Position numbers and translations under genes: made by a program
Origin: an uncultured Chlorobiaceae bacterium
GTDB lineage: Bacteria > Bacteroidota > Chlorobiia > Chlorobiales > Chlorobiaceae
Reading direction: 5' to 3'
NCBI GenBank assembly: GCA_903920215.1
Contig: CAIXLG010000036.1
Span: 1-37,419 of the forward strand
DNA: 37,419 bases
Notes under the pieces: generated by a model
The model's input: only the letters and a program-made list of their open reading frames with translations
Database searches by the model: none
What the model was told of the DNA's origin: nothing
Part shown: one piece after another, positions 4,763 through 14,647 of the stretch
Position numbering within the stretch: the stretch's first letter is position 1
Layout of the letters: each line of letters starts with the position of its first letter

Positions 4763-6682
4763 CTATTTTGAGGATTTATTATTTCCTTCTATTTTTCCTA
4801 AAAACTGAATATCATAGAGATGCTTATAGAGACCATCAAGCTTAAGAAGTTCTTGATGATTACCCGTTTCTATGACACGACCACGATCAATGACAATGAT
4901 CCGGTCGGCATTCCGAACGGTAGACAGCCTATGAGCTACCACAAGAGCGGTACGATTTGCAAGCGCATGGTCAATAGCCTCTTGTACCACCTTTTCCGAT
5001 TCGTTGTCAAGAGCACTGGTTGCTTCATCTAAAATCAGAAATTCCGGGTTTTTTACTATAGCACGAGCAATGGCCAGTCTCTGGCGCTGGCCACCGGAAA
5101 GCTGTACACCACGGTCGCCAATCAGGGTTTCATACTTCTTGGGTTTTTCCTCAATGAATAGATGTGCATTGGCCATATTAGCCGCTGCAATGATCATCTC
5201 CCGCCTGATCTCACCATTGCTACCATAGGCAATATTCTCCCCAATTGTATCATTAAATAAAATCACATCCTGGTTGACCAGTCCAATCATACTTCTAAAC
5301 TGCTTGAAGTCATATTCGCGGATATCAACCCCGTCAATAGTGATCCGGCCTGAATCAACATCATAAAAACGTAGCAACAAGTCAACCATCGTAGACTTTC
5401 CAGAACCGGACTGCCCCACAAGCGCAACAATCTCCCCTTTTTTGATTTCTAAAGAAACATGATCGAGAACATTCGGAGCACCCGTTTCATTGCTGTACTT
5501 GAAGGAAACATCCTCAAACCTAATCTCATGGACGAAACTATTTATCGAACGAGTCCCATTGCTGATATCCGGCACTGTATCTAGCAGTTCAAACAAACGC
5601 TCTGCAGAGGCCTTTCCGACTGCCATCAGGGTATTGACCTCCCCTAATTCTTTGATTGGCCCCATCGTTGAATAAAGGGTGAAAATAAAAAGCATCAGTT
5701 CTGATGAAGTTATGTACCCATGAAACACCTCCAGACCACCAAACCAGAGCACTGTGGCAATGGTTGTCACAAACAGCGTTTCATTCATCGGTCCGATAAT
5801 ATTGCGAAGCATTCCTATTTTAATATCGAGTTTGCTGAAATTTTTGGTAAATGCCTGGAAGCGATCAAGTTCGACATTTTCGAATGCGTTCGACTTAATA
5901 ACCTTGATCCCACTAAATTTTTCCTGCAGTACCGAGTGCATATCTCCCATTTTAGTTCGTAAAACAACAGCAAGACCATTAACCTTGTTACCGATCACTC
6001 GTATAACGAAAAATATGCTCAGTGAAGTGACGGCTGCAAACAAAGTGAGTTTCCAGCTTATGATCAGAAGAGCTGCAACATAAACGACTATTGAAAATGG
6101 ATTTTGTAAAAAATTGATAAAAATTAAGCTAATCGTATCATTAACAGCCTGAACATCATTATAGACAAGGGTCATTAAGTCGCCTACTCGATTCTTGTTG
6201 AAATAATCCAGGTGCATCTCAATGATATTACTGAAAACATCATCCCTGAGACTCTTTGTGGACTTGGTCTTAATCCTGAACAGAAGCTGGCTGTTCAGGA
6301 AGACAAAGAGATTTTTCAAGGCAAAAGATGCAATCAGAAAAAGGCATATGTTCAAGAGTGTACGTTCTTTGGTCTCTGAATGAAATACTTTTGAAAAGGA
6401 TTCAGTCACAGAAGCCTTAAGCTTGTCACTATTTATTCCTTGAAAAACAAACGGATCGGATATGATGCTGATTGCCACAGCCTTTTTCTCAAAATCTTTA
6501 GTATGCTGATGCGCAGGAGCCTCAATGGTACTGTCAGCATTAAAAACAGCATTCAAAAGAGGAAGCATTGAGTAGATTGATACAATTCCTAGCAGAGAAG
6601 TCATCATACTGAGCATCACAACAAGCACCACTGTCCCTTTTGATGGGTGTATGTAGTGAAATAAACGGATAAATACGCCCAT
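4763..6682 (-). CDS. MsbA-like ABC exporter (fused TMD-NBD)
   Basis: 639 residues. The N-terminal half has six predicted TM helices (first at about 17-45) with an unusually long loop after TM1 (about 50-110). The sequence DYFNKNRVGDLMTLVYNDV fits the coupling region of type IV exporters. The NBD has Walker A GQSGSGKST at 423-431, Q-loop near LVNQD, signature LSGGQ at 528-532, Walker B FLILDE at 548-553 and switch His in VVAHRLST. It should work as a homodimer in the inner membrane. Two roles are plausible: lipid A or lipid flipping (MsbA-type), or export of the lasso peptide encoded at 8239. The lasso genes run the other way, with a dead transposase between, and no other exporter is seen. The sequence reads more like a general lipid exporter, so assignment to the lasso cluster is uncertain. 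Confidence 0.88.
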   Translation of the reverse strand: MGVFIRLFHYIHPSKGTVVLVVMLSMMTSLLGIVSIYSMLPLLNAVFNADSTIEAPAHQHTKDFEKKAVAISIISDPFVFQGINSDKLKASVTESFSKVFHSETKERTLLNICLFLIASFALKNLFVFLNSQLLFRIKTKSTKSLRDDVFSNIIEMHLDYFNKNRVGDLMTLVYNDVQAVNDTISLIFINFLQNPFSIVVYVAALLIISWKLTLFAAVTSLSIFFVIRVIGNKVNGLAVVLRTKMGDMHSVLQEKFSGIKVIKSNAFENVELDRFQAFTKNFSKLDIKIGMLRNIIGPMNETLFVTTIATVLWFGGLEVFHGYITSSELMLFIFTLYSTMGPIKELGEVNTLMAVGKASAERLFELLDTVPDISNGTRSINSFVHEIRFEDVSFKYSNETGAPNVLDHVSLEIKKGEIVALVGQSGSGKSTMVDLLLRFYDVDSGRITIDGVDIREYDFKQFRSMIGLVNQDVILFNDTIGENIAYGSNGEIRREMIIAAANMANAHLFIEEKPKKYETLIGDRGVQLSGGQRQRLAIARAIVKNPEFLILDEATSALDNESEKVVQEAIDHALANRTALVVAHRLSTVRNADRIIVIDRGRVIETGNHQELLKLDGLYKHLYDIQFLGKIEGNNKSSK

Positions 6683-6704: not shown

Positions 6705-7793
6705 TTATAACTTGCACTTATTGCTTCGGCAATTAAAGGTGCTATTCTTTTGTATACCAGAGGTTCGAGCGATCGAAAAGTGTCTCAACTTTTCCTGGCA
6801 TCTTTTGTAAGACGCCTCAAATGAGAAATGGTGTTTTTCCGAATCTGTTTTTTTGTCCGCGATACTCCTCCCTTGTTGACATGTGCTGCAATTGTTCAAA
6901 TCACGGTTCATGTACTTGTCAGGGTTCAGTTCCGTTGAGTATGTAGGAAAATAAAATACCTCAATTTTATCGGTGTTCAACGCGAGCCATTCCTTGACTG
7001 GTTTGAAACGATGCACACGCAAATTATCAAGGATCAGGATGATCTTATGGCCAACATCCTTTACAAGCCGGTTCATAAATTGAAATTAGATTAATCTCTG
7101 GTAGTTCATCTCGCCCTCATACAGCATAAATCGCAGTTTTCCTCGATTACTAATTGCTGACATCATGCTGATATGCTCTTTTCGAGCATCCATGCGCAAT
7201 ACCATAGTCTTGCCAGAAGGTGCATAACCCCTTACAAGATTGATGTTTGTGGATATCCCAGCATCTTCGCCCCAGTAGATTTCAGTCTGCTCTGATTTGG
7301 CTTTAGTCTTGAGCTCAGGGAATAATTCCTGCATCAGGCGTTCAACCTCTACTGTCCTTTGCTCATAGGCTTTGCGCAATGGTTTTTGTGGGGTATAGCA
7401 CCAACGCGACAGATATTGCCCTACAGTACGCATCGGTATCTGTATGCCGAATTTCAGCTTGATCAACATTAGAATGGACTGACGGTCCCAAAGAGCAAAG
7501 GGAAGCATAGGCTGATCAGGACAATGATCGTTAATAATTTTCTGGATTGCCTTTTCCTGTTCAGTTGACAGGGTACGTTTGTCTCGGGTTTTTCGATCAC
7601 GCTTTGGTACTGAAAGCATCTTGTTGCTAGCTTGCAGAGACCATTGCCACCGCCGACTGGTGGTCTGCATTGAAAGACCTAAAAGCCCAGAAAAATCAAG
7701 ATTCTTTTTGCACTTTTTTCGAAGAGCCATGACCTGTTTGCAGAGGAGTTCGCGCTCACGGTCAGTTGCTTTTCTGAGATCTATTTTTTCCAT
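6705..7793 (-). pseudogene. IS630-family transposase, inactivated by nonsense and frameshift changes
   Basis: The N-terminal part (7086-7793) has HTH regions, then a first catalytic Asp in EIYWGEDAG. An in-frame TAA (7086-7088) interrupts it. The frame resumes three codons later with NRLVKDVGHKIILILDNLRV, YFPTYSTELNPD and NRDL, which carry the second and third DDE motifs. After NRDL the reading frame is wrong: another frame holds the expected C-terminus (ISHLRRLTKDAR and so on), again with a stop. At least two lesions make the element dead. I could not fix the terminal inverted repeats or the TA target duplication. It sits 22 bases upstream of the ABC exporter start, so it has replaced whatever originally lay there. 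Confidence 0.85.
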
Positions 7794-8117
7794 GGTCTCA
7801 ATATACTAGATCAAGAGCTATGATTGCCGAGTCAATCATTCACGTGTTTATCTACCGTCTTTAACATAAGAAGTAACGGAATAATAAAACGCGATATCAA
7901 GCTAAGCTATTTTATTTATGTATTTTACGCTACTCAGCTGTGCTCTCATAATTTTCTATACACTCTGAACAACAGCGTAATAACCTCACCCAGCCCTATA
8001 AGCATTTTTTTACTGAAAAATGGTCATGCAGAAGTTGTTATAACTAATTTCTTGCATTTGGTTCTCCAGATTACCATCGAGGTCTTGCTCGAAAATCGCT
8101 CTGAAGTGAAAATGGAG

Positions 8118-8147
8118 TTGATGTATTTGTTGCAAATATTTTACAAT
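8118..8147 (+). promoter_or_regulatory. Possible sigma-70-type promoter upstream of lasso precursor
   Basis: TTGATG (8118-8123) and TACAAT (8142-8147) are separated by 18 bases and lie about 90 bases before the precursor ATG. In AT-rich DNA such matches occur by chance, so this is only a candidate. Confidence 0.3.
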
Positions 8148-8198
8148 ACTATTCAGTGTTTATTTTTGTTTTTTACTGCGATTAGAGTAAGTTCTTCT

Positions 8199-8215
8199 AT
8201 TCGGATTTCCCGAAT
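8199..8215. repeat. Inverted repeat ATTCGG-N5-CCGAAT just upstream of precursor
   Basis: A six-base inverted repeat with a five-base spacer ends 23 bases before the precursor start. It could be an operator or a small 5' UTR hairpin. There is no long T-run, so it is not a clear terminator. Confidence 0.35.
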
Positions 8216-8238
8216 ATGTTAACAAAAAAAGCAAAACA

Positions 8239-8433
8239 ATGAAAAACGTAAACCACAAGCAAGCAAAGCCGGATTCGACCGTCAGCTCATCTCCTGAAAC
8301 CAAGCACCAACAGATCGGATCAAACTTTGGGTTCAAGCCAGTGAATACAATTAATGGTGCCGCAGCAAGAACAAAAGGAAATTACATGGATCACCCCAAG
8401 GAGAAATACTATTATATATACCCTAAACCATAA
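8239..8433 (+). CDS. Lasso peptide precursor (A protein)
   Basis: 64 residues. Residues 1-46 form a hydrophilic leader and 47-64 the predicted core GNYMDHPKEKYYYIYPKP. Supporting features: Thr45 at the penultimate leader position, as is typical of lasso leaders; Gly47 as core residue 1; Glu55 at core position 9, which allows a nine-residue Gly1-Glu9 macrolactam; and an aromatic tail (Tyr11-13, Tyr15) that can plug the ring. The leader contains FGFKPVNTING, where Pro34 and Gly40 have the spacing of the P-x-L-x3-G recognition motif, although Leu is Asn here and the upstream aromatic is shifted. The B and C maturation genes lie downstream on the same strand. The start ATG lacks a clear ribosome site. 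Predicted mass of the cyclised core (my arithmetic): about 2287.08 Da. Confidence 0.78.
   Translation: MKNVNHKQAKPDSTVSSSPETKHQQIGSNFGFKPVNTINGAAARTKGNYMDHPKEKYYYIYPKP
8377..8430 (+). other. Predicted lasso core peptide coding segment (18 residues)
   Basis: Codons 47-64 of the precursor. Ring candidate: Gly1 to Glu9. Asp5 is too close for a known lasso ring size (7-9). The tail residues 10-18 are Lys, three Tyr, Ile, Tyr, Pro, Lys, Pro. No Cys, so it would be a class II lasso peptide. Confidence 0.7.
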
Positions 8434-8741
8434 GTCGCCAATGTAGTTGAAGCCATGGGAAAGAGCCTGACCTTTGGTATCCGAGAACATAAAAAGCGCG
8501 TATCAAAATGTCAGAAACCGTATTGGTCGAACTCCAAACAGTAGATGGATACTATGCGCAAGCCGACTTGTTAGCTGGTCGGCTTTGCTTTTGATCGCAA
8601 TATATGGACTCACAACAAAAAAAAGAAGAACACATCAATAAGCTTTAACTCATTATTATTGTTTATTGAGCAAAAATTTAACAGGATATTCTATTTCAAT
8701 AATGTAAGTTCTTGTAGATTTCCTTAATAAAAGACTTGATA
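8434..8741. other. Gap between precursor and B gene, with a hairpin
   Basis: About 300 bases without a convincing gene. A 29-codon frame from ATG 8452 has no support. A strong hairpin at 8558-8592 may attenuate transcription between the precursor and maturation genes. DNA becomes markedly AT-rich after about 8600. Confidence 0.5.
8558..8592 (+). terminator. Hairpin after the lasso precursor gene
   Basis: GCAAGCCGAC (8558-8567) pairs with GTCGGCTTTGC (8578-8588, one bulged T) around a ten-base loop, followed by TTTT. It could be a terminator or attenuator that gives more precursor than enzyme mRNA, a common arrangement in RiPP operons. Confidence 0.65.
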
Positions 8742-9491
8742 ATGTATTTTCACCCTAACAAATATATTTATCTAACTTATTTCAATGATGAAATAATAGC
8801 TCTTGATTTACAAAAAGATCAATATATTTTTTTATCACAATTTTCTGAGGTTATATATTTTGCTTTAAATAATGAATTCAAATATGTACAAGATAAATAT
8901 GTGTTAGCTGGTAATAATGATAACCACATGCCTGATGATTTTAATAATGCAATTAAATATTTGAGAGAGATAGGGGTTTTATCAAAGATTAATTATGATT
9001 ATTCATCTGCTATTCAATTGAAAAAAACCAATTTCTCTGCTGGAGCACCAAATATTGACTGGCGAATATCTATTGGTGATTTAGATATCAAGGTCAAAAT
9101 ATCAATGATCTTTGAGGCTTACGTTTTGCTTATAAAAGTATATTTTATTATTAATATATTTGGATTTTATAGTCTAATAAAAGCTATAAAAAGAAAGAAT
9201 ATTGGGTGTGTTAGAAAAGATGCCAAAGAATTTGATATTCTTGCTACTGCTTTAAATCAGGCATGCTTCTATTTTCCGATAAAAACCAAATGTCTTGAAT
9301 GGTCAGCGGCACTAACCTTTATGGGGCTAAGAAGAAAATGGAAATGTAATCTTGAAATAGGAGTGCAAAATTTACCCTTCGCAGCACATGCATGGGTAAA
9401 AGCTGATGATAAGGTAATAGCTGACAGCCACAATTTACCAGAAACTTTATCAGTTATTCTATCAGAACCTTTTTTGATAAGGAGTAATTAA
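8742..9491 (+). CDS. Lasso peptide B protein: RRE (B1) fused to transglutaminase-like leader peptidase (B2)
   Basis: 249 residues from ATG 8742; a TTG two codons earlier is also possible. Residues 1-90 resemble the PqqD-like RiPP recognition element that binds the leader. Residues about 160-249 are the transglutaminase-like cysteine protease domain, with Cys184 in KCLEWSAAL, the LEIGVQNLPFAAHAWV motif with His216, and Asp228 as the likely third catalytic residue. A hydrophobic linker lies at about 121-145. It should bind the precursor leader and cleave after Lys46. The fused B1-B2 form is the McjB-type arrangement of proteobacterial clusters. Its stop abuts the GTG of the cyclase gene, so translation is probably coupled. 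Composition is AT-rich compared with the flanking chromosome, suggesting transfer. Confidence 0.9.
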   Translation: MYFHPNKYIYLTYFNDEIIALDLQKDQYIFLSQFSEVIYFALNNEFKYVQDKYVLAGNNDNHMPDDFNNAIKYLREIGVLSKINYDYSSAIQLKKTNFSAGAPNIDWRISIGDLDIKVKISMIFEAYVLLIKVYFIINIFGFYSLIKAIKRKNIGCVRKDAKEFDILATALNQACFYFPIKTKCLEWSAALTFMGLRRKWKCNLEIGVQNLPFAAHAWVKADDKVIADSHNLPETLSVILSEPFLIRSN

Positions 9492-11288
9492 GTGTTTATT
9501 GCAGGCTTTTTTAACCAGGTTTCTGATAATATATTCAGTAAATTAGATGCTATTGTAGGGGACAAAATATGTGGAGAGAGGGTTTATTTTAAGAATAAAC
9601 TAGTAAGTATTGTTGTCGGAAAAACATCTTCTTCTGTAGATCAAGGCAGAATAATAAGCCTTGATAATATTTTATTGGTAGGCAAGGTCTTTAGTAAAAT
9701 AAGTTTTCATTCAATAACAAAAGAAGATTTAGAGAAACAATCATCAATACCTAATAATCTTTTTGTAAATAAATACTGGGGTAACTATATTTATGTAAGA
9801 GTAAAAGATAATCAAGTAACAGTACTTCGAGATCCTGTAGGGCAAACCCCATTGTTCTATACTAAATTAGATTCAGGAGAATACTTATTTTCATCTGAGA
9901 TTGAAACCTTGGTTGATATGTTGAAAACCCGCCCTGGATTTAATTGGAAATATTTTTCTTCTTACGCATTACATGCATTTATTACAACAGAACAAACAGC
10001 TTTTAATGAAATTTATGAGCTGCCACATGGGTGTCAAATCTCCTACAACTCTACAAAGGGAATTACGGATACTTCTATAGTCTGGAACCCACTAAACTAT
10101 TTCAGTGGCTATAAAGGCTCGGAAAATGCAATGAATAATATTGTAAATATAACTTCAAATGTTATTGAAAGTTGGACTAATAGCGCCGATGTAATATCCC
10201 TAGACTTTTCAGGGGGCACTGACTCTACAGCTATTCTTTTGTTATTAAATAAGATACTAAACAAGAATAAAGAGATAAGGCTAATAAATCAATATCATCC
10301 TGACGTTTCGTCTTCTGATGAAAGGAAGTATGCACGTGCGATAGCAATGGACTTAGGCCTTCATTTAATAGAGTTTGATCATTCGGATAGTTTACCGTAT
10401 GACCCTGCCGTGAAATCAGCGCGATTTAAACCTAATTGGCCAACATCAATCTTATCCTATTTGAAAGTTAACAATGATATAAGTTCTTTGTTAGAAGGAA
10501 GTAAGAATGTTACCTATATGAGCGGACACGGAGGAGATCATATATTTATGTGTCCTCCTCCAGTAACATCTCTTTGTGATTACTTAATTGAAAAAGGTGG
10601 AAAAGAATTTAATACAAAAGCAATGGAGCTATATGCCATATTTCGCGAGCCGTTATCTTCAATGGCAAGCAATATACTTAAAGGCTTCATTTCTTATTAT
10701 TTTCACTCACAGTACACCCAATCATTTTATGCTATCAACAAAATCAAAAGCGCCCCTTGGTTTAATAAAGAAGTCTATTTGTTAGAAAAGCAAATGCATT
10801 ACCATCCTTTTTTTGATAATGAAAAAACCACTAAGAGCTTGCCTGGAAAATTTTGGCTTATTGAGGGCATATACAGCGGTTTATCTACTATAAAGACAGA
10901 TATAAGGGATGATGGAACTAACCCAATATTTTTTCCTTTATTTTCGCAGCCACTATTAGAACTCGCGTTATCTATACCCACCTATGAGTCATATCGCTAC
11001 GGGCACAATAGATATCTTTTCAGAAAAGCTATAAGTGATACTTTCAAAAGTGATGCTGTTTGGAGACACGATAAGGGAGAAACTAGCGGCATTGAACAAA
11101 GGGGTATAAAAAGAAATGAAAAACGAATATTGGAGCTTTGTTTAGATGGGAATTTGGTGAAGCAAGGATTAGTAAACAAAGAAAAGCTGCACACAGGTAT
11201 GCTTAAGATAATGAATGGTCAAACGGATTACCAATGGGCAGTTACTGATATAATTTGTGCAGAAACATTTATAAATTTATGGAGCTAA
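9492..11288 (+). CDS. Lasso peptide C protein: asparagine-synthetase-like macrolactam cyclase
   Basis: 598 residues from GTG 9492, with AAGGAG about 8 bases upstream and directly after the TAA of the B gene. The N-terminal half follows the class II glutamine amidotransferase fold (ELPHGCQISY near 176-185), but residue 2 is Phe instead of the catalytic Cys, so it cannot release ammonia from glutamine. The C-terminal half is the ATP-dependent synthetase domain with PP-loop SGGTDS at 240-245. In lasso biosynthesis this enzyme adenylates the ring Glu or Asp side chain and joins it to the new N-terminus of the core. The acceptor would be Glu9 of the core encoded at 8377-8430. Length matches the family. 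Confidence 0.9.
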   Translation: MFIAGFFNQVSDNIFSKLDAIVGDKICGERVYFKNKLVSIVVGKTSSSVDQGRIISLDNILLVGKVFSKISFHSITKEDLEKQSSIPNNLFVNKYWGNYIYVRVKDNQVTVLRDPVGQTPLFYTKLDSGEYLFSSEIETLVDMLKTRPGFNWKYFSSYALHAFITTEQTAFNEIYELPHGCQISYNSTKGITDTSIVWNPLNYFSGYKGSENAMNNIVNITSNVIESWTNSADVISLDFSGGTDSTAILLLLNKILNKNKEIRLINQYHPDVSSSDERKYARAIAMDLGLHLIEFDHSDSLPYDPAVKSARFKPNWPTSILSYLKVNNDISSLLEGSKNVTYMSGHGGDHIFMCPPPVTSLCDYLIEKGGKEFNTKAMELYAIFREPLSSMASNILKGFISYYFHSQYTQSFYAINKIKSAPWFNKEVYLLEKQMHYHPFFDNEKTTKSLPGKFWLIEGIYSGLSTIKTDIRDDGTNPIFFPLFSQPLLELALSIPTYESYRYGHNRYLFRKAISDTFKSDAVWRHDKGETSGIEQRGIKRNEKRILELCLDGNLVKQGLVNKEKLHTGMLKIMNGQTDYQWAVTDIICAETFINLWS

Positions 11289-11344: not shown

Positions 11345-11737
11345 ATGGAACAAAATATATTTGGACGTTTCTTGCTCATAATTATGCTTTCTTCTTATCT
11401 ATCATCGTGTGCTGTTGCTGCATCTGTTGCTACAAATCAATTGATTTCAAGAACGACTAAAGCCATAGATAGTAAATTGAAACACAATGATATTAACGAT
11501 AGAAAAGGGAGTGACAAAGAAGATAAAAGAAGACTTCATGTGAAATCCAGACATAGTGACAAACAGAAAAAAAATGGTCAAGTAGAACATGATGATCAAC
11601 GGCAGGTTACAGATGGAAATATTAAAACTAGTTCCCAAAAATCTACACTGGTAACAATGAAGCCAGAAAAACCACAGAATACAAAGAGTCAAATTAAACC
11701 AGTGAGTCCCCAAAATACATTGATACCTATCAAATAA
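11345..11737 (+). CDS. Small Lys/Gln-rich lipoprotein of unknown function
   Basis: 130 residues. N-terminal hydrophobic signal (about 7-20) with a lipobox LSSC (Cys22), so it should be lipidated. The rest is low-complexity and hydrophilic: an Asp/Lys/Arg-rich middle, then a Lys/Pro/Gln/Thr-rich tail with repeated KP and PQNT units. No domain is recognised. It follows the lasso cyclase by 56 bases in the same AT-rich block and could belong to that transcript, for instance in immunity or envelope attachment, but nothing in the sequence shows this. Confidence 0.6.
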   Translation: MEQNIFGRFLLIIMLSSYLSSCAVAASVATNQLISRTTKAIDSKLKHNDINDRKGSDKEDKRRLHVKSRHSDKQKKNGQVEHDDQRQVTDGNIKTSSQKSTLVTMKPEKPQNTKSQIKPVSPQNTLIPIK

Positions 11738-12741: not shown

Positions 12742-12866
12742 ATGGTCAACACAAATGAGCTGCCAAAAAACTTCGTTACTCCGACGGATAATGCCCTTAT
12801 CGAAAGATTTAACGGCCTAAGTCGCGATGAGCACCTGCATATAACCTGGTTTCCAGGCCTTGATTT
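12742..12866 (+). pseudogene. IS3-family transposase (OrfB) fragment
   Basis: The segment PTDNALIERFNGLSRDEHLH followed by ITWFPGL corresponds to the end of the integrase catalytic core of IS3-type OrfB (PxDNAxxESFNGxxRDExL, with the catalytic Glu equivalent in LIERFNG). The preceding codons and everything after about 12865 are not homologous, so only about 40 residues survive. The remnant lies against the end of the PIN-domain gene. Confidence 0.7.
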
Positions 12867-13373
12867 TTATCCAAGCCTGACTCTTAAATCGCGAAGCATT
12901 GCAAATGTATTAAGATACTCGACATTAAAAGCATCACAAACATTAGGAATAGGGATCCTTCTTCTTATAGTCGAATTATACTCCTCGTGCGTTACTACGA
13001 CATAATTGTAAACAGCAGCATAGGCAACTAACCAGGAGTCAGCCAGATCAAACCGGGCAAATTCAGCTTTTGCTGAGGGTGAGTACTGCACATGTCTTTG
13101 AGACCATACCATAATTTCAGCATATTTAGCAAGTACCAGGGCATCGTCACATGTCACAAAAGAATCAATAAATGACCCATTTATCCAATCAACTAATTGA
13201 TCAGAACCACGATTAATTTCATTCTTTACATGATCAATACTTTTTAATTTCTCATTATCAGCTTGAATTAACAATTTATCCCAAAATACAGGGGCAATAT
13301 CAAAGGCATAATAATGACGTGCGGCATTAATCAAGACATTGGCATCCAATAGAAATATTAAAGAGTTACTCAT
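12867..13373 (-). CDS. PIN-domain ribonuclease-like toxin (DUF4411 type)
   Basis: 168 residues. The N-terminal strand FLLDANVLINAARH carries the first acidic residue (Asp10). Further conserved acidic residues are in HVKNEINRG (Glu52) and FDLADSWLVAYA (Asp109, Asp112), and THEE lies near 128-131. This is the layout of PIN nucleases of the DUF4411 group, which are usually paired with an XRE/ImmA-type metallopeptidase. Its ATG overlaps the stop of the upstream gene by four bases (13370-13373), indicating translational coupling. It probably acts as an RNase toxin in the cytoplasm. Confidence 0.82.
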   Translation of the reverse strand: MSNSLIFLLDANVLINAARHYYAFDIAPVFWDKLLIQADNEKLKSIDHVKNEINRGSDQLVDWINGSFIDSFVTCDDALVLAKYAEIMVWSQRHVQYSPSAKAEFARFDLADSWLVAYAAVYNYVVVTHEEYNSTIRRRIPIPNVCDAFNVEYLNTFAMLRDLRVRLG

Positions 13374-14524
13374 ACTTTCTTCCCAAATATCTCATCAGCA
13401 TAAGTTTGAAATGTATCACGCTTCAATCCCGTTAAATGATAGGCTTCGGTATAAGCTGTTTTCCCCTCACGAACCGATTGAATCAACATTTGCCCAAAGC
13501 GGTTACCAATTCGAAGGTTCTGTGTAGGATAAAAATCACCACCACCGGCATCAGATTTTTTTTTCGCTGCAAGCTTAATCTCTCTGCTTTGCCAGTCACG
13601 ATAATAATGGAAAAAAACCTTTCTCTCTATAAGCCCAAGATCCAGGCATCGTCGTGCAGCAACAATCTCACTAACCTTAAAATGCCTTGCTATATTTTGA
13701 AAACGATTAGCATTGCCTCCAATTGCAGGCCAGAGATTTATCAGTAGTGTTGTTGGCACTAGAAATTCAGCGGCAATTTGGTTACAAACCATTTCGGCAG
13801 AATCAGCTGCAGGTTGCAGTCGACGTAAATCGAATGCAGCACTGATACCAAGCCAGAGGTGAGCCAGTTCATGAGCCAAGGTAAACATCTGCGCTGCTTT
13901 TCCATCTGCCCCATTGACAAAAACCAAGGGCGCATATTGGTCAACCAAGACGAATCCCCTGAATTCCTGAGGATCCAGTTTGCGAGAAGTGTTATTTCCA
14001 ACCACACCGTTAACCATAACCATAATTCCAGCCTCTTCAATCTTCCTCTCAAGCCCCCTTAATGCATCAGACCATGTTGGCTGACTTTTTGCCCAACCAT
14101 CATTAATGCCTAATACTTTCCTGATTTGGGCAGCAATATCTATGGGATTATCAGTAATTGATGCAGAGCCAATAAAAGGTAATGGAGCATGCCCCTGCTC
14201 AGTCAAGCAGTCCCGCATCCATGCCTGCCGTTGTTGCATCTTGTAAACGGTATCAAGAAGTTCAGGACTGAATTCTTGTACTGTCTCACTTGTCAATGTC
14301 CTGAAGTTTGTAATAGGTAAACTTTCTTCAGGTGGGCTTGTGAGTAATAAATATCCAAATGGAACCGCGGCAGCTTTTGCAAAATCCTGAAGTTGAAGAA
14401 AAGTTGGCTGAGCCGTTCCGCTAAGCCACGCGCCTATTTTTTTGAATTTATGTTCCAATTTCTCCTGTCGGCGAGACCGTTGTATCGCCCACTCAAGAAC
14501 TTGGGGAGTAATAGCAATCCGCAT
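13370..14524 (-). CDS. XRE/ImmA-IrrE family protein with HExxH metallopeptidase motif (antitoxin partner)
   Basis: 384 residues from ATG 14524; GTG 14530 would add two. The N-terminal 65 residues resemble a short HTH module (KIGAWLSGTAQPTFLQLQDF). The C-terminal ImmA/IrrE domain has the zinc motif HELAH at 218-222 within FTLAHELAHLWLG. ImmA cleaves repressors in other systems. Here, in front of a PIN gene with a four-base overlap, it is expected to control or neutralise the toxin. Such pairs (COG2856 with DUF4411) are found in mobile or variable regions, matching the surrounding remnants. Confidence 0.85.
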   Translation of the reverse strand: MRIAITPQVLEWAIQRSRRQEKLEHKFKKIGAWLSGTAQPTFLQLQDFAKAAAVPFGYLLLTSPPEESLPITNFRTLTSETVQEFSPELLDTVYKMQQRQAWMRDCLTEQGHAPLPFIGSASITDNPIDIAAQIRKVLGINDGWAKSQPTWSDALRGLERKIEEAGIMVMVNGVVGNNTSRKLDPQEFRGFVLVDQYAPLVFVNGADGKAAQMFTLAHELAHLWLGISAAFDLRRLQPAADSAEMVCNQIAAEFLVPTTLLINLWPAIGGNANRFQNIARHFKVSEIVAARRCLDLGLIERKVFFHYYRDWQSREIKLAAKKKSDAGGGDFYPTQNLRIGNRFGQMLIQSVREGKTAYTEAYHLTGLKRDTFQTYADEIFGKKV

Positions 14525-14647
14525 TACCACATACCAAATAAAATTTCGAAGGAAAACGGCAGAAATATTTTAATACTCAAAGCCACTGTAGGGAGCGTCT
14601 CCCAATTTAACAAAAACATTGAGTATTCTGGTGAAAGTGTACCACTG

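Follow-up and report, generated by a model that had tools for sequence, protein, structure and literature searches.

A candidate lasso peptide gene cluster with a tyrosine-rich predicted core in an uncultured Chlorobiaceae bacterium

The open reading frame at positions 8239-8433 of the DNA analysed here (a stretch of 37,419 nucleotides from an uncultured Chlorobiaceae bacterium, referred to as the window) is most likely the precursor gene, A, of a lasso peptide that the products of two downstream genes, B and C, would process to a Gly1-Glu9 lasso, in a cluster that was probably acquired horizontally. The peptide class is known and the system is not of a new kind; what is new is the core sequence, in an unusual host. 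The cluster adds a core without a match found in this analysis, and it points to the likely transfer of a lasso system, otherwise present mostly in protist symbionts, into a genome resembling that of a green sulfur bacterium. A full-text search of an open-access library turned up no paper in which lasso peptides and Chlorobium are both named.

The precursor candidate and its predicted enzymes

The predicted core, GNYMDHPKEKYYYIYPKP, is the C-terminus of a 64-residue open reading frame that opens at ATG 8239, and its 18 residues include tyrosines at positions 11, 12, 13 and 15 and prolines at 7, 16 and 18. The leader ends in ...GAAARTK, with Ala at -6, Thr at -2 and Lys at -1, and carries GFKPVN, with its Pro at -13, in place of a YxxPxL motif. 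All the features by which lasso precursors are recognized (Thr at -2, a first core residue that is mostly Gly, and Asp or Glu at positions 7-9) are present in A. Because positions 7 and 8 hold neither Asp nor Glu, a ring of seven to nine residues could be closed only on Glu9. The sequence-only reading had proposed both this core and a nine-residue ring, and the translation of 8377-8430 agrees with it.

No homologue of A was found in 97 other Chlorobia genomes, so that no alternative identity comes from there, and comparison with plasmids gave chance matches only. There was no Rfam family within 7700-9000, no phage match, and no obvious ribosome-binding site 5' of A. Among the relatives examined, none of the exact precursor was found and the core is conserved nowhere, so its conservation cannot be judged. 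The open reading frame at 8455-8544 (MGKSLTFGIREHKK... / MGKSLTFGIREHKKRVSKCQKPYWSNSKQ) was considered as a second precursor and rejected, as it has T-x-G and no acidic residue at 7-9; it lies in the same frame as A, past the A stop, and is possibly a decayed second precursor or a chance occurrence.

Features of the predicted lasso cluster and its boundaries in the window
Feature	Position	Strand	Evidence or remark
IS630-family transposase remnant, two reading frames	6705..7793	-	upstream boundary of insert
A, predicted lasso precursor, 64 aa	8239..8433	+	ORF; motif common to 20 precursors beside B relatives
A leader, 46 aa	8239..8376	+	
A predicted core, GNYMDHPKEKYYYIYPKP	8377..8430	+	Gly1-Glu9 macrolactam; loop/tail = residues 10-18
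A stop codon, TAA	8431..8433	+	
Terminator-like hairpin between A and B, 9-bp stem	8560..8585	+	1 found vs 0.8 expected in shuffles; fold z = -2.95
B, predicted fused RRE + transglutaminase-like leader protease, 249 aa	8742..9491	+	PF13471, NF033537, alignments, fold search
C, predicted asparagine-synthetase-like lasso cyclase, 598 aa, GTG start	9492..11288	+	Asn_synthase domain; alignment; tree
Integrase-core (rve_3)-like fragment	12742..13002	+	downstream side of insert; PF13683 2.4e-05, just under cut-off

The C-terminal domain of B, which starts at ATG 8742 (TTG 8736 is a possible alternative), is matched by PF13471 (E 3e-19) and by NF033537, the lasso B2 model (E 6e-21; 75 bits against a cut-off of 33), and its Cys184, His216 and Asp228 are invariant in the 14 aligned sequences. 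The AlphaFold model of B is of moderate confidence (mean pLDDT 63.5, pTM 0.58) and has three N-terminal strands plus helices. The best PDB matches of this N-terminus are lasso RRE-leader complexes, namely 5v1v (TbiB1), 5v1u and 6jx3 (lasso B1), at a probability of ~1.00 and with weak E-values of 0.01-0.06 (0.014, the best, for 5v1v and 0.042 for 6jx3). The sequence-only reading had assumed a separate B1 protein; given these fold matches that assumption is dropped, and B is best read from its model as a single fused RRE-protease of the McjB-like kind. C is matched by PF00733 (E 1e-14), and by lasso cyclase models below their curated cut-offs; the SGGxDS motif at Ser240-Ser245 is conserved, the N-terminal glutaminase Cys2 is absent and the length equals that of its relatives. 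The three reading frames A, B and C show no disruption, and the catalytic residues of B and C are kept; as judged from their sequences, the latter two are real lasso enzymes. Directly 3' of C lies a 130-aa lipoprotein-like, Lys/Gln-rich open reading frame (11345-11737, + strand) without a family match, a possible accessory or immunity gene.

Precursors beside relatives of B

A scan of genome contigs with the single B protein found nothing and an alignment including distant plasmid homologues was too loose; scans with a tighter alignment (A2) gave 13 relatives, 33-48% identical to B. Their hosts are a gammaproteobacterial MAG, Candidatus Odyssella thessalonicensis (two loci), Paracaedibacteraceae, alphaproteobacteria, and MAGs labelled Rhizobium, Parachlamydiales and Verrucomicrobia; viral contigs contained no relative of B. 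Comparison with the precursors adjacent to such genes was the check that the sequence-only reading had named, and all 20 precursors found beside the 13 relatives have Ala at -6, Thr at -2, Gly1 and Glu at position 8 or 9. The last three features served to pick these precursors; Ala(-6) did not, and is nonetheless invariant. Core length is ~16-20 residues in 19 of the 20 and 50 in the other. A matches this pattern with its Ala(-6), Thr(-2), Gly1, Glu9 and 18-residue core, and the Gly1-Glu9 ring is thus its best reading.

The YxxPxL motif is described for leaders of the B1/B2 type at positions -17 to -12 (PMC10368454). In microcin J25, by comparison, pairing with the RRE seems limited to leader residues -12 to -10 (PMC11420955). 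That the canonical Leu is missing from A, as had been remarked from the sequence, is literally true, but the suggestion of an altered RRE contact does not hold: none of the 20 relative precursors has the motif, so that its absence is no anomaly in the McjB-like class. The aligned precursors indicate instead that Ala(-6) and Thr(-2) are the conserved leader residues of this class.

The relatives also differ in layout. Two to four tandem precursors with highly differing cores stand 5' of one B/C pair in four loci (L068, 928-1764; L069, 4259-4894; L070, 3924-4274; L074, 4521-4886), and in another (L076, 4373-4588, - strand) the precursor, with core GAKYARNAEQIGERRIRDAP and the Gly-poor ring GAKYARNAE, lies on the strand opposite B and C. 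A large peptidase-like gene, resembling lasso isopeptidases by eye, precedes the precursors of L076 (2160-4193), and a C-terminal piece similar to it occurs in L068 (391-737); none was seen in the window. A protein of ~900-1150 aa with a LuxR-like N-terminus adjoins several of the symbiont clusters (L070, L072, L074 and L079).

Origin of the cluster and comparison with known systems

The contig is part of a 3.04-Mb genome, the only one of 98 Chlorobia genomes with the lasso cluster. Genome kinship and gene content point to a green sulfur bacterium as host, and to Bacteroidota, as GTDB uses the name, as its phylum. An orthologue of C was found in none of the other 97, which gave only weak matches of ~22-34%, and of 393 further genomes from the phylum just one had a match to B, a weak one. 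Both genes are AT-rich against flanks of ~40-46% GC. Its presence in a single Chlorobia genome, its AT-richness and the transposase remnants on either side make horizontal acquisition by a Chlorobia-like bacterium probable, and this is the simplest reading. Downstream of the insert (12867-14530, - strand) a DUF4411 protein adjoins one that carries an IrrE/M78 peptidase domain, and the two are likely to form a toxin-antitoxin-like pair. In the tree of C the window pairs with the gammaproteobacterial MAG (97/97) beside a symbiont-rich clade of ten rows (98/99), which includes loci of Odyssella, Paracaedibacteraceae, Parachlamydiales and other MAGs; the node joining the pair to this clade to the exclusion of the outgroups is weak (74/83) and the outgroup branches are long, so the tree places the C of the window only tentatively as a neighbour of the clade.

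The amoeba-symbiont clusters (Amoebophilus asiaticus Aasi_0899-0902, Paracaedibacter and Odyssella) share with the window the fused B and the A-B-C order; the B and C of Odyssella are 30-39% identical to those of the window, and the symbiont precursors have the same Ala(-6), Thr(-2), Gly1 and Glu8/9. The A. asiaticus cluster is reported to be flanked by two IS elements (PMC3423634), an insertion-sequence association common to it and the window, and its relatives occur in Paracaedibacter and Odyssella (PMC8831229). In most of these clusters C is followed directly by an ABC transporter, and tandem precursors occur in some, whereas the window has one precursor and no adjacent exporter; moreover, its host resembles a green sulfur bacterium of free-living habit, unlike the amoeba symbionts. 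An ABC gene straight after C is likewise absent from the nearest relative of the window. The ABC gene at 4763-6682 was ruled out as a dedicated exporter, since this MsbA-like gene is general throughout the genus, with matches in 31 of the 31 genomes searched, nearly all at 60-75% identity.

Microcin J25 (McjA, McjB, McjC and McjD) resembles the window in its fused RRE-protease B and, in McjA, in Thr(-2), Lys(-1), Gly1 and the lack of YxxPxL; in contrast, its ring closes on Glu8, its cluster includes the exporter/immunity protein McjD and its core is unrelated. Lasso B2 loci from the same genus (G177, G201 and G117) encode proteases of the NF033537 type as the window does, but these proteins have only 150-165 aa, lack a fused RRE, have other neighbours and are not orthologous to B.

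The closest relative is the gammaproteobacterial MAG Zod_Metabat.15 (B 48% and C 46% identical). Its B lies in two parts at the ends of two contigs, the join being our assumption. Unlike the window, this MAG has a radical SAM/SPASM gene (480 aa) between precursor and B. Its precursor, two genes upstream of B, has Thr(-2), Gly1 and Glu8, and a would-be core of 50 residues with CDPVC, which is absent from the window. Modification in trans by an orthologue of the radical SAM enzyme is not supported for the window, as its genome contains only a weak match (26% over 144 residues).

Alternative readings and proposed pathway

B and C could be a real lasso pair of which A is not the substrate, the true precursor having been lost or being encoded elsewhere in the genome; the motif in A would then be coincidental. 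In favour of this, the terminator-like hairpin would cut A off within the 308-nt spacing between A and B (one relative has a gap of 400 nt), and the base composition of A (GC 0.415, third-position GC 0.47) differs from that of B (0.288 and 0.20) and C (0.339 and 0.28); being less AT-rich, A may have a different history. The leader of A also departs from its relatives in Arg(-3), mostly Leu, Ile or Val elsewhere, and Ala(-5), mostly Ser or Thr, and the opposite-strand precursor of L076 means that position alone is not decisive. The frequency of the motif argues against coincidence. Among 1,939 background open reading frames of 35-90 aa, the full motif A...T.G.{6,7}[DE], with a core of 14-22 aa, occurs once, and five times without the Ala; given the roughly five + strand reading frames that the ~500 bases 5' of B contain, the chance of it there is ~0.3-1.3%, a figure that leaves adjacency to B and C out of account. 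Over 1 kb 5' of B the full motif appears in no other reading frame, and in the whole window the looser motif recurs in one small reading frame, antisense to a coding region. With Ala(-6) and the core length fitting as well, we consider it unlikely that A is not the substrate.

It is less likely still that the locus is a decaying relic, with intact genes left silent or inactive after capture by a transposon and no lasso made. The transposase remnants on the flanks, the restriction to one of 98 Chlorobia genomes and the lack of a dedicated exporter would fit such a history, but all three genes are intact with their catalytic residues, and the closest relative, its B split over two contig ends, similarly has no ABC gene just after C. 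The product might also be a branched, unthreaded ring, if no thread is held by the short tail and a ring as poor in Gly as GNYMDHPKE. This ring has no Gly besides Gly1, where most relatives have one at position 4 or 5. However, a Gly-poor ring is present in at least one relative, L076, and a bulky run of tyrosines is able to plug a nine-residue lasso ring; we regard an unthreaded product as unlikely.

For the preferred reading, that A encodes a threaded lasso made by B and C, the following pathway can be proposed. Once expressed, the leader of A would bind the RRE domain at the N-terminus of the fused protein B, and the Cys-His-Asp protease domain of B would cut after Lys(-1). C would then activate the side chain of Glu9 with ATP and link it to the Gly1 amine, which would close the predicted nine-residue ring round the tail KYYYIYPKP, in which the tyrosines would act as steric plugs. 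Release would be by a general exporter, as no dedicated one is adjacent. The source of the cluster itself would be a branch of lasso systems with a fused B, akin to the systems of protist symbionts. An antibacterial role for the product is a guess that we hold less likely than not, and a signalling role is likewise a guess. The three-gene set is small (~3 kb) and easily expressed in E. coli, so that the prediction is directly testable.

The pairing of the window with Zod_Metabat.15 admits a broader reading, to which we give little credence: the two could form a fused-B sub-branch in which the dedicated exporter has been lost and the substrates have diversified (in the window a Tyr-rich 18-mer, in the MAG a 50-residue core paired with the radical SAM enzyme), the product remaining intracellular or leaving by a general route in a role other than that of an exported microcin. 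In the MAG itself (G394), the genes at 9559-11362 of L092 and 4-2438 of L067, on contigs C34 and C72, may constitute a lasso/radical-SAM hybrid pathway.
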